A DNA stretch of 64,000 bases, from contig OZ038532.1 of assembly GCA_964036665.1 (NCBI GenBank), forward strand, positions 9,610,001 to 9,674,000, written 5' to 3'. Under the pieces are notes generated by a model. The model made no database searches. It worked only from the letters and a program-made list of their open reading frames with translations, and was not told where the DNA came from. This stretch comes from Gordius sp. MW1 (taxonomy: Eukaryota > Nematomorpha > Gordioida > Gordea > Gordiidae). This document shows positions 29,954-63,825 of this stretch, in pieces. How positions within the stretch are numbered: the stretch's first letter is position 1; every line of letters starts with the position of its first letter. The translations under genes were made by a program, and so were the position numbers.

Positions 29954-30020
29954 ATGAATTTACAAATATATGTATTTCTATCACTCTTGCATCGTACATT
30001 CACCGGAATTGGTTTGAGAA
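29954..30020 (+). CDS. Copy 1 exon 1, signal peptide
   Basis: It encodes MNLQIYVFLSLLHRTFTGIG followed by LR and the first base of a Lys codon. The hydrophobic core and small residues near the end fit a secretory leader. The copy 2 counterpart, MQLQFCSLIAIIHYAFSGIN plus LR, has the same length (67 bases) and phase. A TATATA at about 29885 lies upstream, but AT content makes this weak evidence for a promoter. Confidence 0.75.
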
Positions 30021-33000
30021 GTAATATTATTTTTCATTACAATTTTTATAAACTGAAAGAAATGTATAATTGACTAAATTTATTTGAAAAATAGAGTCGT
30101 TGCACCTTGAACCCCAACTAACATTTGCTTGTGTGCCTGAGTGTCCCCCCGGATGGACTTATCATGTAACATTAGGAGAATGTTGGCATTTTAGGGACAA
30201 AAAAGGAACTTTCGGTACTGCTGATCTGTATTGCAAATCACTACATTCCGTGTCGTATCCTTATACAGATATAAGACAAATGGTAACATAGCATACCTTA
30301 TTAACCTACCATATTTTAACCCCTGTAAATTATGGTTAAGCTTGCCTGATGAAATAGGCTATTTTTATTGAATACAATAATATTGAAAAAATTCGTAATA
30401 GTATTGCGCCATTATGATCGTACAAAACAATAGATATCTAGGGATTTCTTATTATATACTCAGATATTAGGTAGTTTGCTATACTATTATCGATAATTCA
30501 GAAATTTCTGCTTATTATAAATAAATTTCAAATATTTTATCTTTAGAAGATTTGAGTTAAAGGGTCTTAGAATATATCCAACGCATTTTGGGCGAAATCA
30601 TAAGGCTGATTACATATTTCACTTTTAAAAAGTTACTCGGCCCAGTATATCAAATGAGTTGGTATATGCGGTATATGCTTATTAAAAAATACTTGTGCTT
30701 GTAGGATGTAATGAGAGAATCAAATATTGACAATGTATGGGTATGGATTGCAAGAAATATTGATGATAGCAAGTATTATGACGTGTACAAAAGAGAAGTG
30801 ACCCGATGTTATTCCGGTTTTAACTGTTACCCAATACAGTATAATGCACCTCACATGTAAAGTAACATTTTAAGTCATAAAATTTCGCATTTAAATTATG
30901 GGTTAACTATGCAAAAGTTACAAATAAATTAACATATAAATACTCTTGATAAAATTTATAAATATTTTAGAATAATTGTCAATAAAAATTATAAGTTTGG
31001 TTACCGATTATACAATTGCAAATCAATTTAAGGAGACCAAAACCATCTTATTTTTCTTGAACTTATATTTTATCATTAGAATGTATTCTAGAAGTCAGTA
31101 CAAGGTATTAAGTACAACAGCTATAAGTTTTGGAAAGAAGATTTTTTTAAACTTATTATATATTCAATCACTTCCAATGACGGTCACAAGTTTACGTCAC
31201 AAAGTGGAGAGTTACTAGTAGTCAGGTGAGGAGCCAGGTATAAACCACGGCAAAATGATGAAAGTTTCAAATAATCCTGGTGAACTATGTAAAACTTGCT
31301 ATTCAGGAAGGCCATCATTATGTGTGAGTTCGCTTTAGCGACAGCTTCATTGGCCACGTGTAAAAAGATCGTCACGCTTGAACCATGAGGGTATGGGCCT
31401 GGCCTGAAAATCAAAAAAGGAGAAAACTTTTACGTGTACCCTAGGCATATGACATGGCAAATTAGCATCTACTTTTACAGGCGCAAAGATTATATCTTAA
31501 CATAATGAACTGGAAAACATATTTTTTAGATTGAATATCCGCTTATAATGTGAATAATATATAAAATTGCGAGATGTTGCGGAAGAGAAAATCGCCAGAC
31601 AACATCGTCCAATTGTTATGAATTATCAAAGAAATGTGCGCAAGGAAAGTTTATTTAGTATTAGATACGAATTGCAAAAGTAAACGACGAAAATCACCAT
31701 AAAATTTCCACGCTATTAGTTTAAATGAGACGCTGCAACAATAAAACGGCAGTACAGGTTAGGTCAAACCAAAGGTCCAAGGCTTTGAATAAAAAGTGGT
31801 GGGATTAAATGTGCTAAAATGTTTCTTATAAAAGAATTTTTATATTGACTATGATATAAACTAAAAAAGTCGAAGGAATATCAGGTTTAACATGATAGAG
31901 AATTTGACAATCTTGTCTATGACAAAGATCCACTTCCTAATATAGAACCAAGCAGGGATCAAACGCTTTCAGGAGCAGGAACTTAGGAAATAAATGAAAA
32001 AGCTTCAGAAAAATAAAGCTAATGGATTAAATGGAGTATCGATGAAAGCCTAGGTCGGTCGGAAAAAGAAGTCATGATCATGACAAACTTTTTTGAGGCA
32101 GAATACAAATTCCCAATCAATTGAGAGCGAGCACAATCCTTATTTAAAGGCAAATGGGAGCCTCAGAAGTATGGTAAATACAGAGGTATTAATACCGCCC
32201 CTTGGCACATCGAAAGAATCTTGAAAACAAGGGTGAGAATGAAGCTGACAAATTGGCAAATAAATTTGTCATCCGCAATTGAACCCATCTTTACACTAAG
32301 ACTAAGGATAGATAAGTACCGTGAAAGGTAAAAATCTAAAGGCATGTATCGATTCGGGATACTTATGACACGGTACCTCGAGATTTTCTCTTATGGTGCT
32401 GATACTAACTTAAGAAGAATATTTTTAATCTATGTGGTGTCTGAGAAAGCATATTGCTGTTAACAACCCATGAGGAATATTTTTGGAACCTCGAGCTTTT
32501 GCTTTTGAGCGACACTACATTAGTTTAAACTCTTTTGGGTATAAATAGGATAAAATGTTTTTCTCACTTATTAATAACCTAACTATGACCACATAAAAAT
32601 CTACTTGGTGTTTGTATATGCAGATAAAAACATACTATGCAAGGAGACAAAGAAAGAAGTATTTGGAAAAGTCGAAAAAATAAATATATATTAGCTGGTA
32701 AGTCCTTTAAATCATTAACCAAAAACCTTATACATGAAGATGAACGTCACAGCTCAGTTGTTGGAGGATGACCAAAATAGTATCCAAACGTATATGGGCT
32801 ACCTTACGTCGGCCCTATGTAGCATCGAGACTGACGTTACGCATGCAAGAGGAGGAAACTATCCGGTTTATTGTTTGACAAGAGGATGCCACTATAAGTT
32901 ATGCAGATAAGGAGAATAGACCCTAGAGTATACAGAACTCGATTATTTGCATAATAACTAGATAGGGCAAAAATGGGTACGTGATTTATGGTTGATATGA

Positions 33001-36000
33001 TAAAGGAATAACGGCTTAGGCAATATGAACATCTACGTAGGGATTATGATGTAGGTCAAAAAGTATCGCGCCGGGGATGGTAAGAAAAAAACGACCTCGT
33101 GTTTTTTTAAAAAGGGCAAGTGGATAATTATTAAATCAGAAAAAATCTCCGGCATGACCCTTACTCGATTATAAAGAAACTTTAAAACAAACTCCACAAT
33201 TGTCGGACTAAATTCACAATAAAAAACAGCTGGAAAATTTCTTCTTGGTAAACAAGGGAATAATAGTATTAATTATAAGCACTACAAACTAAAAAGTTTA
33301 AGGAATGTTATTAAATCTTTTAAAATTTTACGTGCCAAACATCTCACATATATTCTTTTTAATAAATTTCCAGAAATGTAATTGAGAGCGACAATTTGGC
33401 AATTTATTTAATTTTGTGATTTGATAATTTATTAAGCAACTCATCAAAATGGTAATAAACTATTTATTTTTATTCATATACTCTTATCTAATAAGATTAT
33501 CAAAAACAGACTATCAAATAACATTAAAGGTAAAATTTTATTTATAAAAGCTCTATTAACTTTAAGGAAATGGGGTATTGGCGAACCTAGTAATAATCAC
33601 TTCGAAGATTGCGTTCGTTACGTGGATTACGGTCTTGATTCAACATATTGTGGCAAGACTATGGCCAGACCGTTATGTATGAAAGAACATTGTGGTAAAA
33701 ACAATAAAAATGCTGAAAATACAACATTTAAAATCCAGAAATAAAAAAATAGACAAAATTGGCAATTCAAAAATACATTATAGGCATTATTAGATCCATG
33801 GTAGGACATAAATAGGGATTACGAATATTGTTAAGTATTTGGCTTTGCAAACTGCTTAGAATTGTAATAAGATACTAAATAAACATATAAATTCTATAAA
33901 CTAAAAATGTAAAAATTTATATTTTTTTATTTATATTTTTTTAAGCCCATTATTACATACAATACACTATTTGATCACGTACAAGTATTTAAGTGGCCTA
34001 GCATAGAATTCTAAATGAAAAACGAAAAGTAACAATGTAACTATTAAAACAATATATTTTGCAGTATTCAAATCAAATGTTGAATTGATTTTTTGATATA
34101 AAATTTTTATAAATAAAAGTGTGTTGTTTCTTTAATAGCATAAGTTATGAAGCTTTCATTTGTATTAATATGCCTAATTAAACGAACCTTTTTTAAGTTT
34201 TATATCAACATTACATTATAATAGCGGTATTGTATAATTTTAAATTTTTGATAACTTATTTATTTTCATTCGATTAATAGCTAATATTTTAAGATAATAT
34301 ATTTTTAGATTTTATAATAAGGTTTAATCAAAGCTATTTTTATTTAAATTATATAAAAGATGCCTTTTGATACAAATTATAAAGGAATGCCACTCGACCA
34401 CTCATGTTCAATAAACTCGGAATGTTCCAGACACACAGAAGATTCCGTCTGTCTAGCTAACAAATGTGTTTGCCAATATGGCTTTTATAAGTCATCTGCA
34501 AATAAATGCTCGAGAAGTACATTCAAACTATAACAATTAATGTTTTTACATATTTAAAATTTAATTACTTTAACATACACAAAACAAGAATTTTATTATA
34601 AGCCTAAATCTTAATAAAACATTTAAATTTATAATTTTAGGCATTGTTGATAATAACTTATAAAAGAAAAATTAGCATTAATTTATATATTGATCAGAAT
34701 ATGATAGTTGAAATAAACATTAAAATTTTAACTAATTTGAATGACTCAAAACATAAATGACATAGTATTCATGGGATTTATTCATACATTTAGACAAATA
34801 AATTATACACGGTTTGTATTAAATAAACTGTTTATAAAATATCAATAAATTGTTCCATTAGGACTTCGATCATATTAATTCAACAACTTTCAAATATTAT
34901 ATTAAGAGAAAGGACTACACCAGAAATGTGAAACAAAGGGCATTGATTGTCAATCCGGATACTGTATCGAAGGGAAATGTCAATGTCCGCTAAATCTTTA
35001 CGTTGACCCCACTGGAGAATGTTTGCCACGTATGATTATTATTATGATATCTAAGAAAAAATTGCAATTCAATTTAAAAATTTCTTTCCTTTTAATGTGT
35101 GCAAATTTTAAATAATTATTAAGAACCGACCAAAATATAATTGATCAAAACTCTGTGAAAAATTAAATACGTGTTGTCAAAGCACGTTATCGCTTCTCTT
35201 TTGTCATCTAATTTTAAATAATTAATTAAATATATTTTATATTAAATATAGGCGACCTTACTAAATGTAGACTATACCATAATTTTGTGTATTGCACGGG
35301 TCACCCGAAACCCGACCCGACCCGGAATTGAAAATTTCAAAATTCTCTGGGGTCGGGTCGGGTTGGATTTAAAGTGTCGGGTCAAAGGTTAACTTACATT
35401 GCAAAATACACAGGACTAATCTTTTAAATTAATGCTATGAGGTAGATAATATTTTGGATTAATTAAGAAATGTATAATTGAAGATCATTCATTCATTTAA
35501 TTAGATTCCTTTTGTTTATTTTCAGTGGCGTAGCTAGGGGGGGCCCAGGGGGCTCGGGCCCCCCCAAGAGCAAAAACCGGGCCCCATAGGCCCCCCCAAG
35601 GGAAAAATCGTGGGCCCCCGGGCCCCTTCCATCATTATTTTTTTTTATCTTAATTAAGAAACAATATAAAGATTATATTATTGTTTCTGAATAAAAGTTT
35701 TAATTAACGAGTTTCAAAGCCCAAATTTGTTTAATAAATGCAATTACAACGGTTAATAGCCTAATATTAACTTTAAATGATATTAGAAATGAGGACCACT
35801 ATCAAATTCTTTATAATAAGGCAAAAGATTTAGCTGCAATTTTTGATTTATTACCTTCTAAACGTATTAAAAAACCAAAAAATATGACACATTTTACTCT
35901 TTTGAATCTACTAATTCATTAATTGATTTCAAAATTGATTTATATTATCCTATCATTGATAGAATAATAGCAGAATTAAACATAAGATTTTCGAAAATTA

Positions 36001-39000
36001 ATTGTAATTTATTTAAGTCCTTAGAGGGTTTAAACCCTTCATCCTTTTGCGATAAATCTCTTTTATCAGAAATAATTAACCATTATGAATTAAAACTGGA
36101 AGACGGCGAAATAAATATGGCAACATTTTTTGTAAAACATTATAACTCTTTATCTTCAAATAAAATAAAATGCAATGATATTTTTTCACTTATTAAAATT
36201 TTGCCCTCAGTAGTGTTTCCAAATTGTATTATTTTGCTTAAAATAATTTTAACTATCCCAATAACTTCAGCTTCATGCGAAAGATTGTTCTCACTGCTAA
36301 AACGGATTAAAATTTATCTTCGTTCCACAATTGGACAAGATAGGTTATCTTCCTTAGCTTTATTGAGCTTAGAACATGACTTTATAAATGTTATTCCCCA
36401 GGATGATATTATAAATTCGGTTGCAACATCGAGTAAAAGGCGTAATGAACTACTATTAAAAGACTAATTTTAAATTTAATTAAAAATTATCTGGGCTTTT
36501 AAACTTTTAACACTTTCAAAATATATTAAAATATTATTAAATTTACGAAAATTCTATCCTGGATTCAATTTAATTGTTTATCTCACATGCTTATTGTTTA
36601 ACATATCTTGCATATTTTTATGTACCACATGCACATATAAAGCCAATAGTTTTCCAAAAAATTGTTTGTACACCATTTTTTCCCCTTTTTTAGTGATATC
36701 CCATCATAAGTTTGATAAATTAATATTAATAACAAATTCCTGAATTTTATAGACAATTGTTAAAGCATCCAAACTTTCAAGGGATAAAAATCCCCAAAAA
36801 ATTTCTTTTGGTGTGCCATTGAATTCAACAAAATGTACACAAACGCTAAGTTGTTCTGTGCATCTCACATTTCTAATTTCATCTAAAATTGTCAAATAAA
36901 ATTTTGATTCATTTAATTTTGACAGAATATTTTTAAAGTTCATTTAGCCGTTAAATTTATTAGTTCTTTTTAATTTTTAGGTGGTGTAGGGGGGGGGGGG
37001 GGTTGTGCAAATATATCTATAATATCAAGGGGCAATAACTTCTAAAAACTAATCTTAATTTCATAATTAATTTTTTATATCTTATGTTATAATTGCGCCT
37101 TTTGAGGATCTAACCTAAAAAAGGCTTTTAAATGTTCTCATTGTTTTCCTGATATAAATGCTGCCTGAAAATGCTGCCAATATTGCATATGTAAAATTAA
37201 AATTTGTTATATATATGGCCAAGATTCTTTGGGTTGTGGCAATAATTTTTATAAAAACTTTGTTATATAGTTTTTTAACTATTTGCATTATTTTTTAAAA
37301 TGTCAACGATTTCTTGTCAATATCCCCGTTGCACTTTTGCCCTTACAAACTTATTATACCATGTGAAATTTTCTACATTGTTTTAACTACATCACTTTGT
37401 TTTATTTATGAATAAATTTTATTAATTTTATGCCCTATAAACATGAGGGGACATATTAGTGTGATATAAATAGAAAAAATACACAAAGTAGTAGCGGAAT
37501 TTTAAGTTTGTCCAACGTTTATGAAAGAAAATTTTTTAATTGCATTTGACCCATGGTCGTATTTAGGTTTTGGATTGGGGGGGGCAAAACATATCTTTTA
37601 TTCTTAAAGGTGTGGGTAGGAAAATTTTTCTGTCCCCCCCCCCCCTATTTGACCAGCTCAGCCCCCCCAAGGCAAAAAGGCTAGCTACGCCACTGTTTAT
37701 TTTGATCGAATTGTTTTAATTTTGACGCAAATTTAAATTTCACTCGTGAAAGGTAAAATATATAAGTAAAATAACATTTCTAAATTGTATTTAAATAGTC
37801 TGAAGTGGTAGTTCGTTATTAATTCAAACTACATAAATATATGTACATAAACCAAAATAAAAAAGTTAAAATTTATTAAATGGTTCATTTGCGAAACTAT
37901 TTATTTCATATTAATTGTGACCCGAGACTGTAGATATTATCATATTTATACAACACTATAAGAATTCCTTCAAATAAATTTAGTAGTCAATATCTGGGTT
38001 ATCAATTGGTTTCACAAATCGCACTTTAATTTGTCGATTATATTTTACACACCTCTTTTCTTACTCTCGCGTTGGATACTAAATTTTGAAACGCTTTCGC
38101 GAGGGATTCGGTTAAAAATCTAAACGCTTTCGGGTCGGGCCGGGTCGGCCAGAAATTTTAAATTATTTTTGTGTCGGGGACGGTTCGGGTTTAAAATTTG
38201 AAATTATTTAGGGTGGGGTCGGGGAAAAAAGGGCCTTTGCAATTTTGTATAGGTCATTAATTTAATAACAACAATTTTACGAATGTTTTATCCTTATAAA
38301 TTGCACTCGTATTCAAAGTTATCTTTGGTAAGACTAAGATCTACACATATGCGACGTTTCGTAAAAAAAACAAGGCAAATACTTGAAAACGCGAATCACA
38401 TAAAGGATGGAAATTAGTTGGTGGTACGTTCATAGTCCTACATAGACCCAACGCTATAAAGATGTTCTGCCCCCCCCCCCCCCATTATTTAATATATTAG
38501 TAATTCTTGTATTTTGATTAGTAAAAAGAGTTTAAAAAATATAACCAGTTAACTATCAAATAGTGTAAAATTTAAAAAAGCATAAAGTAAAAGATCTTTT
38601 GTAACTATTTTTTAAAGAATTTAAGCGTTATATCTAAATTAGTGAATTTTGATTTTACCTTCTTAAGGTTTCCAATTAATTACAGTGCTTCTTTTATGTC
38701 GTATTTTGATAATAATAGATCTTCATCACCTTTAAGTATATTAATAATAGAATAATAATAGATCTTCATCACCTTTAAGTATATTAATAATAGTTTGTTA
38801 TTTAACTTGAATAGTTAGTTTCTTAATAGATATATTAATTTATATTTACATGTGTGGAAAGTACGGTATGTAACAGGAGCTTTCTAGATATGAATAAATA
38901 TATTAATTTATGCTCAAAAATCCTTAGACCCAAAAATCTTGGCCAAGGGCAATCCGGATTCTTCCCCTTCCTATTTAATCCCAATTTAAGTCATGTTTAT

Positions 39001-42000
39001 AAAACTTAGTTTTTAGATGATGGATTTGATCTTTTAACTTAATTAAAGCTAATTCCATTACATGTTAATAATATAGAGGCTCAGTCATTTGACCCATGTA
39101 AAATGAATGAGCAATGTCAAACTGGCCAATGTTGGCAAGGAGTGTGTGGATGTGGTCCTACAATGTTTATTCAAGATTTTGGTTGTCGTGGTAATTTTTT
39201 AATGTTATGATTTTAAAAAAATGTATTCACATACATTTAATAAATGTTAATTGTAAAAAATTTTGTATAAGATTTTGTATAGCAAATTATTTTTTTTATC
39301 GAGGAAGTTATTTTAATATTTATTAGCTGTTGACTTAACGGAAGCTTGTGAGACAACATCTACTTGTAAAACAGGACAGTGTATCAATTTTATCTGTCAG
39401 TGCCCCCCAGGACTTACCAGAATCGAGGGTGGATGTCTTAAAAGTATTAAAATAGTTTATTAGAAACCGCTAATGAGACTTGAAATAAAATTTATATTCA
39501 ATTAATGCTAAATTAAGGGCTGAGGCAGGGTTTACATTGCAAAAGTCATGATCAGTGTCAAAGTGAGATTTGCATCAATGATTTTTGTAGGTGCCGAGAT
39601 AAAGAATACTATGAACAAGGACTTTGCCACAAAAGTATGTATATTTGCCACTTGAAAATTATTTGTATATATTTTAAATTTATGAAATTACCTATAAAAG
39701 CTGTATTGATTAACTAATAGTCACTCAAAAAGTATTGACAGCAATTTTAAACCGTAACTATTACAACATATTAATTATGTGTTTAGAAAAAATTCATGAT
39801 AAATTATGCTCAACTAATCATCAGTGCTTCAGCAATAATTGTGTTCACGGAGTGTGTCAATGCACATCAAAATTCCATGCCAGGAAGGGCATCTGTTGGA
39901 GAAGTAATATTTAAAAGCGCCTTTATATCGCATTTTATATATTGATATAGAAAGCCCGTTGCGACCTCATTATTATACATTTTAAACAAAATCCCAAAAT
40001 GTGAAACAATTTACATGAACTAGGACTAAGCAAACTACTTTTCAAAATAAGTAGCTATAAGCTATATCGCGCTACTTTTTCAGTGTAACGACAAAGTAGC
40101 ATGCCACATTCAAACTAATTTATCATATGTACATTAAAATATAGCATTCAATAACTAACAATTTAACCAAACAATGTGCTATTGCAAAAAAAAAACGTCA
40201 AAATTTTTCTGACTTAAAATTTATATTGAGCCCTATTGAAAATGTCTTGTCTCAAGTAAGACAGATGCGAAAATCCTTGCCCAATGCAATCGGCGTTTTC
40301 TAAAATTAATTGAGGACCTCAGTTCTTCATCTTTATTTTGAGGAGATTTGCTTAGTTATGCCGACACAGATAGAAAATAAAAGCTAACTGAAAAATTAGT
40401 GGGCGAATTACCCCCTGGGCGCTGTTGAACGCTTCTCTATTGTTTCAAAAGAGTTGTATGACAGACTATGCTCATTATTAAATGACAATTTTGAATGTCA
40501 AGATTGGCTTAAATCACACTAATTATAATTTTTTCACGTAGCTTTAAAATATACATATACTACTAATGTGATTAAGTAGTAAATTGAATTTTTAAAATAA
40601 AGTATAGGTTTTTTAGTTTAGCAAATTTGTTTTAGTTTTTAAAATGTAGCGATGGTAGCGCTAATTTTATAGAAATGTAGCGGTTAGCACGCTAGTGTTT
40701 TTGACAAGTAGCAATATAAGCAGCGCGCTACTTTAAAAGTCGCGTGAACAGCTCTGGTTTTTAATAAAAACTAAACTTGCAATGATTTTTAGTATTAAGA
40801 GTCTTCTATATTGCCAAAATTAAATAGATAATAATTAATATGATTATTTATCATTATTAAGGGCGGCCCTGGGGAACAAAGTGTATTTACGATGATGACT
40901 GCTTAAGCGGTAGATGTCATAATGAAGCGTGTGAATGCAATGAATATTTTAAAGCAGAAGATAACTACTGCGTTCCAAGTATAATATTAACTCTAATATG
41001 TACTACTTGATAAAATACTATATTTGATTGCAATTATAGAACTAATTATAAATGTTTAAAGCAATTAAATGTTAATTTAAAAGTATTTATATACTACCAT
41101 ATTATAGCATATATTTAATTTATTCGACTTGAAAATCAGCCCTATTCGTATTCCAATATTTTTGGCACTATTCATTACTATTCAGAATTATATCATATTT
41201 CTGAACTTATATATAGATAGCCCCCTACAAGCAAATTTAGAGTAATCAAATATAAAGTAATGCGCATTTTCCATTGTACTTATTTCTTTTTGTTTAAATT
41301 ATTATGGAAGATTAAGTAAAGTAATAAGTCAGTTACTTATAAATTTGAATAGAATCCAAAACACGAGGTATTATAAACGTTTAAAGGCACTTTGTTAAAA
41401 AAATTAATAATGGCCATAAAATAAATTTTATACCCTTTATAACTTTAGACGTTGATGTACCTTAATAATTTACTAAATGTAAAGATCAGAAGCCTGACAA
41501 AAATGGCATAATTTTTGTAACAAAATTTATGCATACGATATAAAAGTAATTTCTCTAAGCCTGAGTCATATTCACCTCTTTAAGCCGTAGACTTTTGGAT
41601 TTAAAATCCTAGAGATGGGCGGGCCATCTTAATATAAAAATATTCAAAAAATTAAGTTGTATTTATTTTAGTTTAAACAATTAGTCGTTTTATCTTCACA
41701 ATTGAATTTTCTGCTCTTGATAACATTTACTTACCTATATTTTATTGCCTTGATAGATTCTCGTGCCCCTACTAAATTTGGTCAGTGTGGGTAATCATAT
41801 GAAATTTTCTAGAGTTATGTCAACTTTTTATATCGATGATTTTAATAAAGACAAAGCTATAACCCTTCTAAATTTAATGATGTTTTTACAAAAAAAATGC
41901 ATTGCTCAAAAAATTTAGCGGCTTAAAATTATTTCCCCTTATATAATTTTTTAAATAGTGCCAACTTTATCTGAAAAATAAATTGATATTTTAATTGCTT

Positions 42001-45917: not shown

Positions 45918-45958
45918 GAACGAATATTCTGGTTCTTTGTCAAGCTCTCTCTTTCTCT

Positions 45959-47055: not shown

Positions 47056-47129
47056 TCGGATTCCACACCACCTGCTGACAAACCACATTAAAAAGCAAAT
47101 GAGATACGAAATGTTCAAAAGCCTTCACT

Positions 47130-50485: not shown

Positions 50486-50552
50486 ATGCAACTGCAATTT
50501 TGCTCATTGATAGCTATCATACATTACGCATTCTCAGGCATTAATTTAAGAA
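50486..50552 (+). CDS. Copy 2 exon 1, signal peptide
   Basis: It encodes MQLQFCSLIAIIHYAFSGIN then LR and one base of the next codon. It ends in AGAA|GTAATT, the same junction as copy 1. The first intron is 77 bases here and 74 in copy 1. Confidence 0.75.
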
Positions 50553-53500
50553 GTAATTATTATGGCCAGGGGATTATATTACTCATAACATCTTGATTTG
50601 CATTTTGTTATTTATCATTTTTTTAATAGAGGGTTTGTACCTTGAGCCAGACAGGACATTTAGCTGCGTGCTTATATGTCCTCCAGGATGGATCTATTTA
50701 AAGGAATTGGGAGAATGTTGGCATCTAAAAGAGCAAAAAATGACTTTTACGCATGCCGATAATTATTGCCGTACATTGGAATCCTTATCTTATCCTTATA
50801 TAGATAAATCACAAATGGTAATCTATACTTTAATTTATTTTATCAGTTATAAAAGTTGTGCAAATATAAATTAAATTGACATAGTTATTTACGGACTAAG
50901 AGACACAATCAAGTGACACAACATCCTTGTGTCTTTTTTAACAAAAACAATAAAAATGGTTTGTATATTTTAAAAAAGGATGCAATGAAGAAACTTAACA
51001 TTGACAACGTCTGGGTTTATATATATAGAAACACCGATGATAAACTCTATTTTGACGCTTATAAAAGAATCGTGACGCGTTGTAATGAAGGATATCATTG
51101 TTCCCCTATTCAATGGAACGAACCTCATATGTAATTTAAATTAGCATATGAAAAAATTTTAAACCTGCATTTTATTTTTTATTTCGTAACTTATTTGCAA
51201 ACATAATCTCAAAATTGAACATTCATATGTCAAAAGTTGCTTATAGTTTGAGACCAATTTTAGGTCAGATAGGAGACGGAGTCATGTTTTATTATGAATT
51301 TACGGTTTGCTGATATGTTAATTACAAATTATATTAATTTATAAAATCCGACAAATGTATAGATCAGTCGGTAATATTTTTTTTAAGATTTTGATTAGGC
51401 TCAAAACATTTTCAGCAATTGACTGCTTTATTTGATATCATTGATTTCAAAAAGACTTATTCGTTTTAGTTTAATTTTTTTTAAAAACAAATGTTTTATC
51501 GATGTAAATTAGTAATAATATCATTGTGAAATGACGTATTATATTTAATTTAAAAGGATTTGGGGTCCGGGCCAGCCTAGGCAAAAGCATTGGGAAGATT
51601 GCGTCCGGTACGTGAATTTAGCTCTGGATGTTGCATACTGTGGCGTAACTGCTGCTAGACCATTATGTATGAAAGAACATTGTGGTAAAAGGCAAAATAA
51701 ATTATGTGAGATAAAAAGTCGTATTAAATTTAAGATAAAAAAAAGCATTCCAACCCTTTCTACTTTTAAAATCACTAGACTCAGGAAAAAACCGACATCA
51801 TATCCAAAGACTTCATGTTTTCAAAAACATATATCACTAGATGAATCCGGCAAACGTTGTTTTGCCATTTACCCAGGAGTATTAGCAGAATATATATCAT
51901 CTTAATATAAATATAAATAAATCTCACTAGATTAAGAATATATTAAATATAATTGGTAAGTGTTTATTATGTAAAGATTTTTAAACAAATAGTTAAAGAA
52001 GAAGGTCCAAGGCCCAGGCCCACTCAAGAGAGAAAACCTGGCCCCATGCCCCCCCCTTCAAGGGAAAAATCTTTGGCCCCCTGGCCCTTCAAGCAATTTT
52101 TTTTAATTTTTTGTAATTAAGAAACAATATTATAATTATAATTATTTGTTTCTGAAATTCTGAACTTAATAATGTCCGAAGAACTGAGATATATCAACAT
52201 TTATTGGCACTTTGTTAAAATTATTTTAATTTTTCTCCTTATTTAACGCGCAAAAAATGACAAAATTAGATTTTTTAATTTATTTAGCCACACAGGAGAA
52301 GACACGACCGTCCTATAATAATAATAATTGACGTGAAAAGTAAGCAAAAAAATGACTTTGATACTCAATGTTTCATATCGTAAAAACAGCACATGCCTAC
52401 ATTTATCACACTACCTACACGATAGATAGGCAGTACGTGATGAGGTTACGTTGATTAACATTCGATTAAACGTCAAAACGTATAAAACAAAATGTCTCGA
52501 AAACTACTGGACCGATTTGGCTCGCAAAATCTTAAAACACGCTCCGGAGTGTGGGGAATAAACTGTGAAATTTTGAGCCAAATCAGTCCGGTAGTTTTCC
52601 AAAATTGGTGCCGGCTTACATATATATACACATACACACATATATACATAGTTTCATTTTTATATATAAGATATGAAAACCTGGCCAATATTAATTTGAT
52701 TAAAGAAACCCATCTGAATTCCTAAAGTTTAAATACTTTTAGCGTTGAGTTAAAATTGTTGATTGCTATTAAGTACAAATGTGTCTTGCAATAAATAACA
52801 ACTCGAGACTAAATCCTAATTTAACGGTAGTTTATCTTTTCCCTTACTTATTGTACCTAGGTTTGTATGAAATTTAATTCCTACTATTTTCTTAATGATT
52901 TTATTTTAAATACCATTGCTAGTTATATATTAAGGAGTATAATATTATATATTAAATATATTACGACGGTCCCAAGTCCGTGTGCAAAATGCGGAGAATT
53001 GGCATCAGGTAGGAAACCGGCTGTATTCCAACATCATGATAGTTTCAAACAAAACTTTACAACATAAACTAGGGCGTCTTCCAAATACGACACGCACTGC
53101 ATCTCCCTTCCGTGCAATGTGAAATATACATTAAGACTCATATCAAAAGCGGTTAGAAATTGTGGATAGAAAGTAGTTTAACGAGAATGAGCATCGAGGT
53201 CGCACAAATGCTAAAAAAAAGAAGGTCACATCGCTTGCCTACATGATACTAGGTGAAACGGAACCAAAGCTCGGGAGTTAGAAGAAGGATACAAAGATTT
53301 TTATAGTGTGTCACCAAATCGTAGAAACGGTGTCGGTATCGTTCTAAGCGAAGCGTTTACCGAAAAGGTGGTGGAAGTCAAGCGTGTTCAAATAGGTTAA
53401 TGTGGGTGAAGATTGCAGATCAAGGGGCCCTCCTAACCGTTATGTGCGGGTATGCTTTTAAATTGGGTGTATGGAAATTCATTGGAAAAGAAAATACAAG

Positions 53501-56500
53501 AAATAGGACAGGTAAAAAGGCTTATTATTAGGCGGATGGTATGAACAATATCATGGATGCTATGGGCATGGTCAGAAGAATAAAGAAGGGGTAAAACTTT
53601 TTCAAGTATCCCAAGCATACGACATGCCGATCCCTAATATCTATTATCAAAAAAGCGAAGATCATATTATAAATTATAGAAGTTGGAAGCATATTAGTCA
53701 AATTGACTATCTGCTCCTACGGCGAAAAGGATTGCAAAGTAATACCGGGAGAAAAAATTGCGAGGCAAAATTGTCCACTTGTCATGGATCTTAAAAGCTA
53801 AGTATTTCCCGAAAGAAGAAGGATTTATGAACCTTGAATTCGACACGAAACGCTAAAGGGTATGTTGACGAACAATAAATATCACCAAAAAGCCTTTTCA
53901 CTCTTGGGTAGACGACGATTGGGAACTATATGGGCATAAAGGAAACAGCGATTCGTGTTCTAAGACACACCAAAGAAGTCAAAGCTATGGATAGGGAACT
54001 ATGGTGATTATATCATCAGTTAGGGATTTCATCGAAAGAAAGAAAAATCTATATAGACGTTGGCATAAATCAAAATGTCGGACGATTATCAAGAGTAGGA
54101 GGCCAAGAGAGCCGCGAAAAAGGCCGTTAAATTAGCGAAGAATGACGCGTACACCGAGATGGCAAACAAACTGGACCTTAGAGGGGGCAAAAAACTTATG
54201 TACAAATTGGCCAAGATAAGGGGGAAAATACTGGCTAGGTGTTATGCTCCCTAAATGGGTTTATGAAATTTGAGAAAGACATTTTCATTGATTCCTTGTA
54301 AATTAAAATGAATAGGACAGGATGAAAAAGTAGTTCCTATAGTGGATTTCAGCGCCCACGTAGTGGAAGATTTTCTCGGGTATGAACAAAATCCTGGAGC
54401 CTACAAAGAAGGGGAACTCCAAGTATCCCAAGCATACGACAAGATCAATTGCTATCTTTAAAAACGCGAAAATATATTGTGACTTATAGAATTGGGAAGC
54501 ATTTTAGGCAAATTGACCTAGCTGATCATACGGCAAAAGAATTTAGGGAGCATCAAGGATGGCAAATTAATAAGAGAAGAAATCGCCAGGAAAAATAGTC
54601 CCCTTTAGGATCCTAAGATAAAATTATTTTCAGAAAGAAGAAAGGTTTATGAACATCAAATTCGATACGAAATATTGAAAAATCCGTCGACGAACGAAAA
54701 AACCAGCAGATAACCTTCACACTTTTGCCAGAAAGTTGTAATAAAATAGAAGGCGATTTGGAGACGCTCGGCAATTCAGGTTCTAGGACAGACCAAAAGA
54801 CACAAAGCCTTAAATAGAAAACTATGGTGGTGGGATCAATCAAATATGGATTTTAATAGACATGGGCATAAGTCAAAAAAGCTGGAGGAATATCAAGAAT
54901 AAAAGGAGGCAAAGGAGCCCGTAGAAGGCCGTCCATACACCGAATGGCAACCAAAATGAATCATAAAGCGGAAACTTATACACAAAGTGGCCAGGATAAG
55001 TGAGAAAAAAGTCGCTGCCGAAGTTATTAAGATAGTCAAAGACGAGAAAGGTCATACCTTATTTAAGCCGAAGGCGTTGATTAATCAAAGGATATTTCAA
55101 GGGACCCCGATATTGAGCCAAATATAACTATGTTCGCACTCTTTTGGGAGTTGGAAGTTAGGACAGAAATGAAGAAGATGCAAAAAAGAAAAAGCAAACG
55201 GCCCATATGGAATTCCTATAAAATAGCAGTCGCGACCATGACGAACCTATTTAATAAGATATTGGTAAGATTAAATTCCTAATTAATGGAGAGCAAGAAC
55301 AATTATACCTTTTTTCAAAGGCAAAGGAGACCCTCAGGACTGTGGCAATAGAGGTATCATTTAACTTGCCAATTTTTGAAGTTTAAGGAAAGGATAATCG
55401 TAACAAGCTCAAAACGAGGTGGATATATCGGCTGACCAATTCAGATAGTGGCCGGCAAATCCACAATCGACCCGATCTTCGCACCAAGACAGATGATGAA
55501 TAAATATGGAGAAAAAACCTAGATATTGTTTTTATCGGGTTGGAAAAGATTATGACACTATCCCTCGAGATTTAATATGGCGATGCTTGAGAAAATAAAA
55601 TATTCCTGATGCCTATAGACGGCTTCTGATAAATAATTATGAAGCCTCAAATTCTTCTGCTACGACGACAGTTGGAGACTCGAAACGTTTTCGGGTTGGA
55701 ATTGGATACCATCAAAGATCTGCTTTAAGTCCCTTTTTATTTAATATAATTATGGACACTATAATGACAGACATTTAAAACCATCGCCATGTTGTATGCT
55801 ATATGCCAATGATATAGCATAATGCGAAGAAATAAAAGAGAAAGTATTCGAAGAAGCCGAAAAGTGGTCAAAACGCCTAGCTCGATATGTCAACGATCGA
55901 AAAACCGTATAAATATAAATGAAACAGGCAGTCCATCGCTGGATGACCATCTAGAGTACCCATAAGCAGACAGGTTTACAAACCTCGGCTCAATGCTACA
56001 TCAAGTGGGAGGTAGCATAACAGAAGTAATGCCCGGATCCAAAAAATGGCCTAAATGGCGAAGTGTATCCAGTGTAATATGCAACATGAAAATGCCAATA
56101 TGGTTGAAGAGCAAAGCAAATCCATCGTAAGACCGTACTCTATGGAAGTGAAACATGGGTATTAAACACCACGGAAGAAAAGCTATTATAAGCCACAGAG
56201 ATGAGAATAATACGGGGGAGTTTGGGGTATACTAAGCTCGGACCTAAGACGAATGACTTTCTCATGATTTAAATGGGTACTCAATCTTTGGAGAAGGAAA
56301 TTGGCTAGAGTGGTATGGGCATATACTAAGTAGGGAGACGAATGATATAAATCAAAAAAATACTGAACATGGAGGTACCGGGAAGAGATGAAGATGACGA
56401 CCTCGTGTCACGAAAGGGCTAGTCGATAAAGTTATAAAAACAAAAGAGATTGGTCAAGACATAACAGCCAGCCGGTCAATGGAAGGAACACACAGAGACA

Positions 56501-59500
56501 AGCCCCACGACTGTGGGACCAAGTAACAGATATAGAAGAAGAATGACCAGCAATTGAAGGACTATACTTTTTAAATTTTAGTATTTCTACAGTAAGGTTA
56601 TATAAAATGCAATGGCACTGTTACAGAAAGAAAATATTAATGGAGATGAATACCAGATTTATAATAATGAGCGTTTGAAAGCATGGATTAAATAGGGCCC
56701 ACATTTATTACTTCAAAAATGAAATATTCATACTTTAAGGTGTGGTGTATAATATATTTTTAAGACTAATCTGAGCTTAAATATAAAAAGCGCAATTAAC
56801 TAAATTGAGCCTTGTTTTGCAGCAAAAATGTCCCGATTACGCAAAGAAACATAACAAGGTTTTTACGCACCAGAACCCTAGCTAGACCAACTCAAAATCA
56901 TTAAAGGATATTTTAGTTATATTTACTTTGAGGCACTAACTAGCCCACCCTCTGAATTCCGCAGACATAGTTCCATTATAATTGTCTTTGTTTCGGTCGT
57001 AGTTAAAGGAACGACAATACTTTAGATATATAAATTTTCTAAAACTTACTTTACCAAAAAAACACTTTTTTAGTGGCATCTATATAAGTATTGAATTAAA
57101 TATAATGGTTTTTTATCATTCATAGTATCTTTATTTGTCACGTTTGGTATTATTTTATTATACAAATTTGGGGAAAAAATATAATTGAATGCTATAACTT
57201 TAAACATTTAGTTAAGAATGTGTTTTAATTGGGGTAATAGAAATTTCTAATAAAATATCGGACTATAGGTTTTAATAGGTGTCAGGTGGCTTCATATTAA
57301 TGTTAACTTATTGCTTGAAAAATATATATAAAAGATATGTACTTACTCCTTTAATTTATTAAAATAAATTTAAAACATTATTTTACTAATCCCTAACTAA
57401 ATATATAATTTTTAAAAATTAAATTATCTTACAATTTAATCATAGTTTATATGCTTTTCAACAATTTATAAAGGAATGCCCCTTGATACTGCCTGTTCTA
57501 TTACTGAAGAATGTTTGAGACACACAGAAAACTCCGTGTGTACTCAAATTTGCACATGCAAACTGCGCTATTTTAAGTCATCATCAAACAAATGCTCTAA
57601 AAGTAAGAGCTGGCAAATTTGCATTGAATACATAATTTTTAAAACATGACGCTATCATGGGTATATGTTAGAAATTTAGTTTTAAGCAATGCTGTATCTA
57701 ATATCAGAAAAGGCGATGAAAGTTATTTTATTTAATTTGGAGAATTTAATCAAAACTTGTATCCACATGTCAATGGTTATTCTTCAAATAAAAATGGGGG
57801 GGGGGGGTGGCTGAAAAAATTGTTTGGGTTCATATATATCAAATAAAATAGATACTATTTAAATATAGTTAACCCTAAAACTAAAGGAAGCTATCAGTAA
57901 CGTGCTGATTTAAGAAATAATAATATACAGTGTTAAGCTTATTTTATGCCATACATCTATAGACTAATTGATTACCCAGCCTTGCGAAATCATGGCCATT
58001 CCTAGAAGATCATGTCCATGTTCTTATATCAGAATAATTTATTTACATTAATTGACAAATTTCGTTTTGTATTTCTATTTTTTTCTTAGGCTCGTAAAAT
58101 TTCCGGTAGCTAATAGACATTCAAAAAATTGACTCCCCGACCTCTCTAAAATAGTGTGATACGCTAAATCTTGAGTAGGATATATAGACTTAGAATATGA
58201 TAATTTATATTTCTTTTTTATATAATATTCTTGGGGCCCTTTAAATAGACATTGCAAAAAGTTAATAAACGGTTACATTACATAGTGCCCCTTATATTTT
58301 ACTAAGAAGAGTTCTCCAATTCGTTTCAGTGAATCAGTTTATTAGCACGAACCTTCTTCATGCCATCTAAAAGAAGGTTCAATTGCTACTCAAAAGTGCT
58401 TATTTATCTCACTCTAAGAAATCTACCCTACGCTCCACGAGTGGCGGTATGGTGTTCCACCCTCCCCGCCCCCCCCCCCTCCTAGATATCACTAGCAAGC
58501 TTCATCCCGTTTATCAATGGATGATCAAACAATTGACTTACAATCTAGATCAGCTCGTCAACTCATCTCCTAAATCGGACGACATAAAACTTGACTCTTT
58601 ACGCGTCCATTGGGGACCATCCAAAAGGAAGGGTATTTACTCTTATTAACAAGTTCTGAAGCTTGACTTTCTCTGAACAACTCACCTACTTTTGGAAAGC
58701 TACATTTTAATTGGGCGTTCGCAATTAAGAATGGCTCAAGGCTCTTCCAATAAAAACCTGCAATTACTGTCAGGCGAGAAACTTCCTATGTCACATTGCT
58801 TTCTCTTACTTTTTGTCCTCTGTCGACATCTTGTCATTGTCAATACATCAAGGAACGGCATCCCCTTTATTTGATAAATAACAAATCTATCGGCAACAAA
58901 AAAAGACGGCATTCTTATTAACCCCTATTCGTCTACTGAGATAAGGAAAGAGGAAAAATACGGCTGTCTTAACGATTTTCTTTTCGTTAGTTGTGACCAC
59001 AACCCCTGATAACTTAGGGAAATGAAAGTAACCAACTTCTTTAATATTAATCACCGCAAACTCTCATGTTGCTAAGAAATTTCCCCACCTTTAGCAGAAG
59101 ATTTCATTAAAGATTGTTAATTCCAATCCTATCTCAATCCATGAATCAATGGCGGCTTTTTTCAGGGGTCTTATTAATAATATTAACAAAACGGCATTTA
59201 ATGATGCATAAATTTTTTTTCTTTTAACGCGCTGGGCCTGAAGTGCAGAAAAAAATACGGCACTACTAAATAATTAAATAGTCATAATGGATAATGAGCT
59301 TAATAAATGACATCTGATATCGACCATTACAATCCATATTATTCATGCCTATGTTTGAAAAATATGCTGTTTTCTTCCCCAACTGAATTTAGTAATGGAG
59401 GCAGTCTATTGATCTATTACATAAAATACCCATGGTCGCATCTTTATAAACTTAAACGTTAAAATATCTGTACGCTTTTTATTTTTGTTATACATGTTAC

Positions 59501-62500
59501 ATAGAAAAAGAGTTAAATCAAAATTGCGACTATTCCTCCGGTGTTGACTGTGAATCCGGATTTTGCATTAAAGGAAGATGTCAATGTCCAAAACATTTTT
59601 ATATTGATACCTCTGGAGATTGTCTTCCACGTATTTTTGCATTAATTAAATAAAATGTTAACGTTACGCAAAATAAGAAGTTGAAGCCGTATTAATTTCT
59701 CTTATTTCAAATACACTGACAAATTTTATTTTAAATTTTTGATGGCTACTGAATAAATATTTAAATTTATAGAGGCAAGTTTATTTGACACCTGTAAAAT
59801 GAATGAACAATGTCTTACTGGGCAATGCTGGCAAGGATTTTGCGGATGTGCTCCTTCAATGTTTGTTCAAAATATGATTTGTAGAGGTAAACTAAATGTA
59901 AATAAATTATAAGATTGCAAATGTATTTAGCTCAAGTTTTTCATTATCGAACTCTTTATAATAAAATTTAATCTTAGTGTCGAGTCACTCTAAATTTCCT
60001 TAACGTGTTTAGTTGGAATATTAACGGAAGCCTGTGAGACAACGGCTTCGTGTGAAAAAGGACAATGCATAAATTTCATCTGTCAATGTCCAATTGGATA
60101 TACAAAAATTAAGGGCGGTTGTTTTAAAAGTAAGATTACCTTAAGATTTTTAATCTTTATTTGAATATATTTACTTATTTATTACCAAGAGCTGACGCAG
60201 TATAGCGAATGCATAAGTCATGATCAATGTCTTGGTGAAACATGTATTGATAATATTTGTGCCTGTCAAAACAATGAATTCTATGAAAACGGACTTTGCT
60301 ATCAAAGTATCAATTAAATTGTTTATTTTGCATCTAAAAAATTTCACCAGTGTATTAGTACATGATTAGATTAGAATTTAAAAACTTGTACTCATATAAA
60401 AGTTAAAATATGCTATAGTTTAAATAAGATAGTGTGTATGTGTATTTATATTACTCATTTCCCAGAGAAATTTCAGCATCATCGATGCTCTACCAATTAC
60501 CAATGCTACAGTAATCAATGCGTTAATGGATTGTGTCAATGCCAATCAGGCTTCTATGCAAGGAAAGGAATCTGCTGGAGAAGTAATACTATTATTAGTT
60601 GTTATTTAAGATTTATTCAAAAATATACAGTATAAAAATGTCAACTAAATTACTCATTTAAAGTTAACTTTTAATCGTAAATATACAATATAGGTTTTGA
60701 GTCAAAATTAATGAGGCTTCGTCTAATAATAATTTAATCAAAACATTTAAAATTATTAACATGTATAAATATTTTTAATCACAAAGATTGGTTTCTTAAC
60801 TTTATAATCGCCCAACGGCAATAAAAAATCATCTATATAATAACACTAGATGGGAAAGATTTTCCTTCGGGCTAAGCAAATTAAAAAAGAAAGAAATCAG
60901 TTATGGCTTTAAAAAGGTATATTATTACTTAGGCAAAATAAGAGATAAATAGCACAGATAATATAGCTTATACGAGAAAGGAAATATAGAGGATTAGAGA
61001 TTCAACAGATTGTTTTTTGACGAAAAGAAAGTTATACACCTTAAATTAATGACAAAATGCTAAAGAAAAACGTTGACAAGCAATAATTACCACAAAAAAT
61101 CCTTAAGACTATTAGTATATACGATACACATTTTAAAACAGACAAATTGTAAGCTTCGAATAAGGAATTATGGTGGGAGAACAATTGATAAAGAGTTCAA
61201 AGAAAAAAATTAATTTCTACTTCAGATAAATTGTCGGAGTATTTTCACGTATTTAGGGAGACAAGGAGGGCTGCATAAAAGGGCAATGCAAAAGCGGAGC
61301 CTGCTTACACTAATATGGCTATAAAACTGGATGGTGCTAAGTCGGGGTCCATAAAGTAGTCAGAAACAAAGAGTATTCAAATATAATGTGGAAATGACAT
61401 ACAATATGGAGCCAAACATATATATGTTTGAACGCTCTCAGGAGGGTACAAATAAATGAGATTCATAAAGATAAGGCTAATGGAATACAGATAGAAGCTC
61501 GGGGTACCGGGAGAAATAAGTCTAGATTATGACGAACCTTTTAGCAAGATATTGGTTGAAGCGGATTCTCGATCAATGGGGGAGGGGGGGGGGCTGCACT
61601 ATTAGAACCTTGTTTGTTTATCTGATCCAAACCACAATGCGATCTCTGAACCAAGACAAATTATGGATGAGGCAACTTGAAGATATCGACTTAGAGTAGA
61701 TTTATTATGGTGATTAAGGATATAGAGGGACAAATTATTTTTATTTATGTAGTAATGAATATATTTCTATATATGTACGGCTAACGAAAAATATATATGA
61801 ATCCTTAATTTCGGTTAAAACCACTAGAGTAGAGATAGAATTTCGTAAAAGGTCTGCAATAAGAGTCTTTAACACGATAGCTAAAGACATCCAAAAGTTA
61901 TCTCCATGGTCTATGATATAATACTATGCGAGGAGATAAAGAAACAAATATTTAAAGAGGCCGGAATTGGTTAAAACGGTTAACTGAAAATGGTATGCAT
62001 GGAGATGAACGTCATTTACCACATCGCTGATTATTAAAATACCCAAGATTAGATAGGTTTACATACCTGGTAATGGTACATCAAGAGGAAGTCAGTGCAA
62101 AGGAAGTCAATGCACGGATATAAAGAACGGCTTAAATGCGAGATATATCCGGTGTCACATGTGAGAAGATGACTCCATTATGGCTGAGGAGCAAAAACTT
62201 CAAATTTATCGTAGGACAGGTACTGATTTGCGGAAGTGAAACGTGGGCGTTAAACCTAATGAATATAAGCTCACACAAGCCACAAATCTATGAATTTTAT
62301 GCTAGAGCTTGGGGTACACAAAGCTCAATCTTATAACGAGTATCTACTTTAGGGCAAAAATGGGTTGCCTATGACAGACATGTAATTGGGCAAACATAAA
62401 TGCGGATGATGTATGTGTTGTGTATAGTAGTTATAAATATGAAATTGCGTGTAAATTTGGTCACGTCGTGTCAAGTGGAAAAGGTAAGTGCACAATGTTA

Positions 62501-63825
62501 TAATAAATAGGAAAATTGGACATTGGTCTTACTCGCTCAGGATGAAAGACTCTGATGAAAAGAAACCTTACTACTAGGGTACACCAATTACTCGATATAC
62601 AATAAGTTTGAGACTTACTGTATAACTATTGTATTTTCTAATGTTATATACCAAAATTTTCGTTTTAATTTATAAATTAATCTAGAGAAACTAATTAAAT
62701 CAAAATTTTAACAACAAAGGGCAGCCACGAGATACAAAATGCACATTTGATGATGAATGCTTGAGTGGTAGGTGCCACAATAAGGCCTGCGAATGTAACG
62801 AATATTTTAGAGCGGAAGGCGGATCCTGCATCCCAAGTACAATATAAGATGAATTGGTCTACCTAAAACTAAAAATGAAAGGTATAAAGATTACATGATC
62901 TACAATCAGAACTTATATAAAACGTAGATCCTTAAAGAATAAAGTACACACCTAAAATATATTTTAAAGGTTGAGTGTAATATCTTATTAACATCAACCA
63001 TACAACAAGCTCCAAACAGTTGATTATTGGTGGGCTAAATAGTTTTTATCCTAATTTAAAATTAAATATTACTGTAGATCTCAATAGTAGAATTTTATTG
63101 TGGGCAAATGCAAAATTTACATTTTATAGTAACTAACTTTTTCATGATGGTGATTTCCTTTATTTGTGACATAATAAAAATACTATTCTTATGATATCAA
63201 TGATAAATTACTTTACTTTAGATATTATAACATTTTTTAAAATCCAAATTAACATTGATATTCTATAAAATCTATATAATCTGTATTTTAAATGCAGAAG
63301 AGAGGCAAATGAGACCTTGCATGAATAATCAAGATTGTTTAAGCGGCTATTGCAAGCATGGAACTTGTTATTGCTCACAGGGTCTAAAACTCATCTTAGA
63401 TTATTGTGTACCAGGTACTAATACTTATTTGTCATTTTAAATATAAAATTATAAAAAGGCTGCTAGACTGCAACAATCAAAATTATATGATAATTAATAA
63501 ATTTAACATTCCTGTACATTCGCGTCCTTTTTTTAGTTGTTGCTAGCCGCTAAGATTTTATTATTTAATTTTGCAAAGCAGCCCTTAATTTAACTACTTA
63601 ATTTTAATAACCCCTTTAAAGATTTTGTCGTGTGTCAATTTTTATCATTTGTTATGATATTTAATAGAAAAACTATATGGTCTTCAATGTAATGATGACG
63701 TCGATTGTCCCTTTATGGAATGTAAAAACAAAACTTGCTCTTGTTTTACTAATTACCACTACGACGATAGTCACAAGGTTTGTTGGCCGAATTCTTCTAA
63801 AGAAGCAACCTACAAATTAATATAA
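50486..63825 (+). CDS. Secreted CTLD plus nine EB-like modules, copy 2
   Basis: Thirteen exons: 50486-50552, 50630-50817, 50979-51130, 51557-51684, 57474-57602, 59505-59630, 59773-59886, 60013-60129, 60190-60306, 60466-60582, 62720-62836, 63298-63414 and 63668-63825. Spliced length is 1647 bases, one open frame of 548 residues ending TAA. Domain order, intron positions and phases equal those of copy 1, which lies 4.6 kb upstream on the same strand, so the pair arose by tandem duplication of a complete gene. Module-by-module pairing is collinear; module 3 differs by eye at about 11 of 38 residues. Introns contain two tandem RTE copies and a third RTE. No exon carries a frameshift or stop, which argues for selection. 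Ligand unknown. Confidence 0.85.
50630..51684 (+). CDS. Copy 2 exons 2-4, C-type lectin-like domain
   Basis: Exon 2 has CVLICPPGWIYLKELGECWH and HADNYCRTL. Exon 3 has NVWVYIYRNTDDKLYFDAYK and RCNEGYHCSPIQ. Exon 4 has WGPGQPRQKHWEDCVRY, YCG and PLCMKEHC. All cysteines of copy 1 are kept. The loop that is GEPSNN in copy 1 is GQPRQK here, so the sugar-binding-type residues are lost. Exon lengths are 188, 152 and 128 bases, the same as copy 1. These three exons are compact (about 1.05 kb), whereas copy 1 needs 3.6 kb because of its RTE. Confidence 0.85.
51685..51905 (+). other. Open read-through after the copy 2 CTLD
   Basis: If the donor after exon 4 is not used, the frame stays open for 73 more codons (KRQNKLCEIKS..., KTSCFQKHISLDESGKRCFA..., AEYISS) and stops at 51905, with AATAAA at 51916-51921. 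This could make a CTLD-only secreted isoform by intronic polyadenylation. The tail is basic with three cysteines. Copy 1 has the same option with a shorter tail. AT-rich DNA yields AATAAA often, so this stays a hypothesis. Confidence 0.3.
51990..52190 (+). mobile_element. Truncated left end of the 35.5-kb hAT family
   Basis: The blocks ggcccaggcccactcaagag, ccttcaagggaaaaatcttt, ggccccctggccc and aattaagaaacaatat match 35545-35720 in order. The terminal repeat itself is missing and the other end has been replaced by the interspersed repeat that starts at 52190. Confidence 0.6.
52190..52690 (+). mobile_element. Interspersed repeat with Helitron-like hairpin
   Basis: The first 250 bases are the inverse of 1-257. 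They run into aaaactactggaccgatttg (52500) and its imperfect inverse aatcagtccggtagttttcc (52582), a stem of about 30 bp, then a TATATA-rich tail. Such 'contact-the-target' phrases and hairpins are common near ends of insect Helitron relatives. The classification is inference. Confidence 0.45.
53060..54330 (+). mobile_element. RTE-type LINE, 5' part (endonuclease and linker)
   Basis: The decayed plus strand shows AP-endonuclease blocks of RTE elements in order: LEEGYKDFYSVSP..RRNGVG, IVLSEAFTEKVVEVKRVQIG (53290-53400), then the SQIDYLL-equivalent and a linker (YTEMANKLDLRGGKKLMYKL near 54150-54200). The reverse transcriptase does not follow. Instead a second element begins at about 54.4 kb in its own endonuclease end. 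Confidence 0.75.
54360..56560 (+). mobile_element. RTE-type LINE, second copy with reverse transcriptase
   Basis: It starts within the endonuclease C-terminus (VSQAYDKINCYL near 54430) and goes on to linker (KLIHKVARISEKK near 54970) and RT. RT blocks are KANGPYGIPIK near 55195, PFFKGKGDPQDCGN..GI near 55310, the 'EKAYDT'-type block near 55545, ADD near 55815 and the C-terminal SETW-x-L block near 56150. There are many frameshifts. Two partial RTE copies head to tail suggest unequal exchange or independent insertions at one site. Confidence 0.78.
56561..57473. other. Intron of copy 2, AT-rich
   Basis: Nothing beyond AT-rich sequence is recognised between the RTE and module 1 of copy 2. Confidence 0.35.
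57474..63825 (+). CDS. Copy 2 exons 5-13, nine EB-like modules
   Basis: The nine exons carry the same cysteine spacing series as in copy 1. Examples are module 3 CKMNEQCLTGQCWQGFCGC, module 4 CETTASCEKGQCINFICQC and module 8 CMNNQDCLSGYCKHGTCYC. Modules 4-8 are each 117 bases; modules 1 and 2 are 129 and 126. Module 1 shows CTQICTC where copy 1 has CLANKCVC: the x4 spacing before the C-x-C pair is kept in copy 1 but altered to x3 here. The final exon ends WPNSSKEATYKLI and TAA at 63823. Modules 3-6 are clustered within 0.81 kb; modules 6 and 7 are separated by an RTE. Confidence 0.82.
57603..59504. other. Copy 2 intron with an unidentified open stretch
   Basis: Between modules 1 and 2 lies 1.9 kb. 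Plus-strand frames at 58383-58649 and 58692-58874 are open and less AT-rich than the surroundings (LHPVYQWMIKQLTYNLDQLV..., LDSLRVHWGPSKRKGIY...). They look like pieces of a degraded transposon protein, but I cannot name the family. A G-run lies at 57797. Confidence 0.35.
60850..62640 (+). mobile_element. Decayed RTE-type LINE in copy 2 intron
   Basis: The plus strand shows linker and RT blocks with many frameshifts: AYTNMAIKLDGAK near 61300, an RT start near 61480-61560, and VTCEKMTPLWLRSKNFKFIV with VLICGSETWAL near 62150-62260, the RTE C-terminal 'SETWAL' box. It separates modules 6 and 7 of copy 2 in sense orientation. Confidence 0.72.

Follow-up and report, generated by a model that had tools for sequence, protein, structure and literature searches.

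A tandem gene pair in the hairworm Gordius sp. MW1 that joins a C-type-lectin-like head to nine EB modules

What do two neighbouring hairworm genes encode, and what might proteins built in this way be for? The question is raised by a stretch of 64,000 nucleotides of Gordius sp. MW1 (GCA_964036665.1, contig OZ038532.1, positions 9,610,001 to 9,674,000), referred to here as the window. From the letters alone, a first-pass annotation had proposed two adjacent genes on the same strand, each of 13 exons, encoding proteins in which a signal peptide is followed by a C-type lectin-like domain (CTLD) and nine six-cysteine modules. Both models could be rebuilt exactly by manual splicing. Gene A (29954-45917, + strand) yields one frame of 554 residues and gene B (50486-63825, + strand) one frame of 548. 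The exon ends were picked by hand as phase-compatible GT-AG pairs, and consequently the open frames are partly the product of construction; that 12 junctions with identical phases are possible in both genes provides support independent of manual choice.

The N-terminal part of both proteins is spread over four exons of the + strand. Exon 1 (29954..30020 in gene A, 50486..50552 in gene B) holds the start codon and a stretch resembling a signal peptide, with a hydropathy peak of 1.25 at residue 7 in A and of 1.8 at residue 5 in B. The CTLD follows in three parts, on exon 2 (30095..30282 in A, 50630..50817 in B), exon 3 (30705..30856 in A, with a VWVWI segment; 50979..51130 in B) and exon 4 (33567..33694 in A, with the pattern WGxGEPS...EDC...C...C; 51557..51684 in B). 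Besides the spliced models, these assignments draw on an alignment of heads, on the PDB profile search for exon 2 of gene A and on the genome search for exons 2 to 4 of gene B.

Each of the remaining exons, again on the + strand, encodes one EB module, as identified by Pfam in the spliced models. In gene A, modules 1 to 9 occupy exons 5 to 13 at 34385..34516, 34907..35029, 39077..39190, 39327..39443, 39518..39634, 39787..39903, 40862..40978, 45441..45557 and 45742..45917; in gene B, the corresponding exons lie at 57474..57602, 59505..59630, 59773..59886, 60013..60129, 60190..60306, 60466..60582, 62720..62836, 63298..63414 and 63668..63825. Every module is a phase 1-1 exon of its own, and the last exon of each gene adds a short tail and ends in the stop codon. 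AATAAA lies 3' of the stop in gene A; none was seen by eye between the stop of gene B and the end of the window. The Pfam EB model (PF01683) matches nine stretches in A (E=8.2e-34, 115.9 bits) and nine in B (E=2.1e-31, 108.2 bits), against a gathering cut-off of 24.3 bits, and the nine modules first proposed from their cysteines are thereby borne out in each protein. EB was the only such family reported, with no Pfam match to the EGF family in either protein at E<=1. A PDB search with A alone also returned the Rh5-interacting protein over the EB part (E=0.0028), a match that we take as similarity of cysteine pattern and not as relationship.

The assignment of the head is less direct. The Lectin_C model of Pfam, which the first-pass annotation had suggested running, matches neither A nor B, even at E<=10 when the head alone is searched, and NCBIfam gives one meaningless weak match in A (E 0.14). 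The PDB search with A alone returned lithostathine at E=0.034 and 0.042, and a profile of the two heads of A and B returned six CTLD sequences at E 0.043 to 0.35. With heads of relatives from elsewhere in the genome (C to F), the picture becomes clearer. All 47 distinct PDB sequences matched at E<=1 by a four-head profile (A, B, C and D) are CTLDs by name, the best being CD23 (chain 4gk1_A, E=2e-5); a six-head profile matches 75 sequences at E<=0.01, the best 60 of which all contain a CTLD by name, with LY75 first (E=4.7e-16). Taken singly, the head of relative E, from contig C4, matches Lectin_C above its cut-off of 22.6 bits (39.7 bits, E=8.9e-10), relative C stays 3 bits below it (19.6 bits, profile positions 3-105 of 107), and relatives D and F, the latter from contig C1, give no Lectin_C match at E<=10. 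Judged by its relatives and by these profiles, the head of A and B is a C-type-lectin-like domain. The architecture as proposed, with hydrophobic start, CTLD and nine EB modules, was thus recovered in all its parts, the CTLD by way of relatives and profiles and not by a direct Lectin_C match.

Conservation within the head is informative on what it may bind. In the six-head alignment ten cysteines are invariant in all six heads, among which we take to be those of both core disulfides and of the N-terminal pair typical of long-form CTLDs, the pairing being presumed; in the hairworm heads there is an extra pair of cysteines, at C96 and C102 in the alignment. Three introns of phases 0, 2 and 1 interrupt each of the six heads (beyond A and B as read by eye). 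In classical C-type lectins, the Ca2+/sugar motifs of Ca2+ site 2 are EPN or QPD, and WND. By the usual definition of these motifs, and as read by eye, the EPN/QPD position of the six heads is occupied by EPS, QPR, EPS, EPS, EPK and HPA, and WND is absent from all six heads aligned. As the EPN/QPD and WND motifs are missing throughout, these heads are unlikely to bind sugars in the classical Ca2+-dependent manner, and their ligand would more likely be a protein or something else.

Comparison of A with B can be used to ask how the pair has been maintained. The proteins are identical at 346 of 547 aligned residues, and the differences fall 136/104/249 on codon positions 1/2/3. The NG86 method gives dN 0.251 and dS 1.57, and because dS is saturated the ratio is approximate; a codon bootstrap places omega at a median of 0.157 (0.098-0.226, 299 of 300 resamples usable), and YN00 applied to the EB part only gives dN/dS values of 0.243/1.121. 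The first-pass annotation had argued for selection from the open exons of both copies and had suggested estimating dN/dS between them; with omega at about 0.16, dS being saturated, the estimate indicates purifying selection on two intact-looking paralogues. Divided by part, dN is 0.22 in the EB modules and 0.32 in the N-terminus plus CTLD; of the two, the head is the faster to change. The two proteins have 64 cysteines in common, with none found in A only and a single one in B only, within the N-terminal hydrophobic stretch. All nine EB modules are reciprocal best matches in register, and since they pair one-to-one in this way the nine-module tail predates the duplication of A and B. At the nucleotide level there are eight matches between the genes, all on exons but one, with one of them covering three exons and the short introns between them; the exceptional, intronic match is 35551-35691/52011-52156. 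By this pattern of differences, A and B look like two old, functional duplicates.

The genes had been presented as a tandem pair, and although the two genes do stand side by side, they are not isolated: at least 13 related heads were found in the genome (211.8 Mb in 12 contigs, here C followed by a number), on contigs C1, C2, C4 and C6. A search with protein A returned A, B and relative C (C6:7210019-7211801), together with a weak match (E 0.2) to relative D at C2:1530053. In both C and D the head is on three exons with intron phases 0, 2 and 1, as read by eye, and outside the pair the heads of the six-head alignment are 20-42% identical to that of A. Exon 2 of a further type of head was matched eight times in the interval from C1:26726697 to C1:27047761 and once more at C4:5607537; at seven of the eight C1 sites the search also recovered exon 3 or exon 4, many at weak E values (0.008 to 0.46), and the head at C1:26897543 is known from exon 2 only. 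The 13 heads are therefore A, B, C, D, E and the eight on C1, a lower bound because the search scores the best candidates only. The Lectin_C model itself gave three matches in the genome, a count that tells little about the number of lectins because exon-by-exon reading missed even the head of relative E.

EB matches accompany the head at most of these loci. Relative D has its head followed by seven cysteine-rich exons, as read by eye, and six of these, when joined, match Pfam EB in six stretches (E=2.8e-24). On C1, each of the eight heads lies upstream of a same-strand EB match, which follows after about 3.5 to 21 kb and before the next head; this match is over the cut-off of 24.3 bits in three cases and below it in five (20.7 to 23.6 bits). 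The loci that were read in part, L054 and L040/L042 on C1 and L053 on C4, have head exons and, behind them, EB-like exons. For relative C, the 10 kb read contains one EB-like exon and its tail is accordingly uncertain. Thus, seven of the 13 heads (A, B, D, E and three on C1) have EB matches over the cut-off, five have weaker ones and C has the one EB-like exon. The same region of C1 holds EB matches at 27086266 and 27087381 for which no head was found. At L046 (C1:27047582-27047761), a tyrosine replaces an otherwise invariant cysteine, and some members of the C1 cluster may therefore be decaying.

EB modules are also abundant elsewhere, with at least 152 matches of the EB model in the genome. 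At least about 70 of them (72 by hand count) lie within 32 kb at C5:6315557-6347402 on the + strand, apparently forming either a single giant array or several EB genes in tight tandem; for a CTLD head in this block, the search gave a weak profile match (E 0.89). Among the matches listed, paired EB matches with a spacing of 174 bp are seen repeatedly on C1, C2, C3 and C8, and others are close to the ends of C1, C2 and C6. The sites concerned are C1 28.12-28.18 Mb, C2 26.50-26.58 Mb, C3 25.77-25.83 Mb and C8 37.20-37.25 Mb, with further ones at C6 18-77 kb, C2 57-67 kb and on the 32.5-kb contig C10. This distribution suggests that an EB gene family may have been copied between chromosome ends.

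Several other features of the window and the genome were recorded. The introns of both genes had been described as full of dead transposons. In the introns examined, which were covered in part, one such remnant was identified, the C-terminal dimerisation region of a hAT transposase at 35871..36464 (+ strand) in intron 6 of gene A (Pfam PF05699, E=2.4e-12). On the - strand, window positions 13456-17382 contain matches to protease, RT/RNase H and integrase in separate open frames, retroelement pieces that we label as Gypsy type. Between genes A and B there is a perfect 64-bp inverted repeat (46697-46760 and 46993-47056), possibly a small transposon. Rfam gave no match in the window at gathering scores. 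At the start of C6 (1-7669), a telomere consists of CCTAAC, equivalent to the TTAGGG repeat, over at least 7.6 kb and is followed by a 342-bp satellite; the arthropod repeat is TTAGG, and it is mainly of TTAGG that the accessible portions of the insect-telomere literature speak, so that the telomere does not favour an insect as the source of the sequence.

The mitochondrial genome bears on the arthropod comparison of the first-pass annotation, which had noted that EB modules and C-type lectins are both common in arthropods. Contig C12 (14,798 bp) was identified as mitochondrial by COX1 (Pfam), the other genes being named from their frames, and it has inverted repeats inside coding genes, whose arms measure 95 bp (atp6), 108 bp (nad1), 60 bp (nad5), 81 bp (nad2) and 107 bp (nad6) and are 99 to 100% complementary. 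Palindromes in atp6, nad1 and nad5 are common to four nematomorphs according to the accessible part of an earlier report, which also notes repeats of up to 60 bp in a gastrotrich, together with isolated instances elsewhere (PMC6649704). Coding-gene palindromes of the kind so reported for Nematomorpha argue for a nematomorph and against an arthropod; in view of the instances outside the phylum, this placement is strong without being absolute. There are 24 matches to cox1 including C12 itself, many of them nuclear pieces, some in repeated blocks on C4 (C4:356383-379815 and C4:1458719-1486890), one nearly at full length at C8:2829490-2830827, and others at further sites.

When these results are placed together, the reading that we consider probable, with some reserve, is that A and B are two tandem paralogues of a CTLD-EB family whose secreted products carry a head for a non-canonical ligand on a stiff stalk and serve recognition or adhesion. 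Both proteins would be secreted, and the CTLD would be the ligand-binding head, with protein-protein or other non-canonical contacts proposed for it because EPN/QPD and WND are missing. By analogy, nine disulfide-rich EB modules could form a rigid stalk that either holds the head off a surface or ties it into a matrix. The family has grown both by gene duplication, seen as tandem clusters, and by exon duplication within the stalk. Its products would most likely serve to recognise or adhere to something outside the cell, whether in the body fluid, the gut or the cuticle, for instance, or in contact with the arthropod host. A crude hydropathy test with 15-residue windows speaks against an anchor: the best windows starting beyond residue 40 score 0.92 (A) and 1.37 (B), with a value of 1.42 at residue 32 of B, such that neither protein appears to have an obvious transmembrane segment. 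It counts against the preferred reading that a soluble protein needs no stalk unless it is multimerised or anchored. It is doubtful whether this can be extended to the view that hairworms possess an expanded, lineage-specific set of secreted CTLD-EB proteins that forms a main repertoire for extracellular recognition or the host interface and no longer binds sugars in the classical way.

The ratio of dN to dS between A and B fits a conserved structural use as well as it fits recognition. It could therefore be argued that these are structural proteins, components of cuticle, matrix or glue, with EB stalk and CTLD head acting as cross-linked building units and not as a receptor for recognition. 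Purifying selection with a stalk more conserved than the head and the cysteines common to A and B would suit such a use, as would the thick cuticle of hairworms. The heads, however, diverge strongly between family members outside the pair, and a cluster of heads has been amplified on C1, a combination of divergence and amplification that we would sooner expect of ligand-binding families; a purely structural use is accordingly rather unlikely, though it deserves a hearing.

Alternatively, the proteins might be secreted toward the host during the parasitic phase in an arthropod and evolve in an arms race. Hairworms are parasites of arthropods, as the accessible text of PMC10380579 states, and the recently duplicated cluster on C1 would be in keeping with this. 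No clear positive selection is detected, however, either between A and B, given their low omega, or in the C1 cluster, where exon 2 of the C1-type heads (54 codons, 21 pairs) gives omega of 0.19 to 0.92 in 20 pairs and dN 0.016 with dS 0 in the remaining one, and the one gap-free pair of exon 3 (17 codons) gives 0.26. We regard an arms race at the host interface as improbable. That a CTLD gene and an EB gene are merely separate neighbours, joined artificially by manual splicing across an intron 4 that measures 5.8 kb in gene B, is scarcely credible, since A and B have the same phase-compatible junction from head to stalk (CG then MPLD), relative D has a similar one as read by eye (CG then VPI), and each of the eight heads on C1 has its same-strand EB match ahead of the next head.

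In a parasitic phylum, Nematomorpha, that is poorly known, this coherent and expanded family supplies concrete candidate proteins through which hairworms may recognise their extracellular surroundings or build them. It also illustrates clearly how modules are duplicated as exons, with phase 1-1 EB exons repeated behind a CTLD head. That no described family joins a lectin head to nine EB modules, as the first-pass annotation had supposed, agrees with our literature search, limited in scope and with subscription journals mostly outside its reach, in which no family with the CTLD-EB architecture was found. As far as limited searches show, CTLD-EB is apparently an undescribed, new combination of known modules. 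In the accessible part of a paper on the locust, C-type lectin and EB families are given in separate rows.

Known systems offer partial parallels for each element of this architecture. Tandem EB modules are found in ecdysozoan EB-module proteins (PF01683) as in A and B. To our knowledge, none of those proteins has a CTLD head. For the head itself, CD23, the low-affinity IgE Fc receptor, has a CTLD with cysteines at the same N-terminal and outer positions as the hairworm heads, positions that are paired in CD23; unlike the hairworm proteins, however, CD23 is anchored in the membrane and has a coiled-coil stalk, and the hairworm heads differ further by their extra pair at C96 and C102. Selectins, too, carry their CTLD on a stalk built from cysteine-rich modules, but theirs are EGF plus sushi modules with a membrane anchor, and their Ca2+/sugar site is intact. 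The group XIV CTLD proteins of vertebrates (thrombomodulin, CD93, endosialin and CLEC14A) resemble A and B in that a CTLD at the N-terminus heads a series of small disulfide-rich modules, the difference being that in group XIV these modules are EGF-like and lead to a membrane anchor, whereas in A and B they are EB modules in proteins with no obvious membrane segment.
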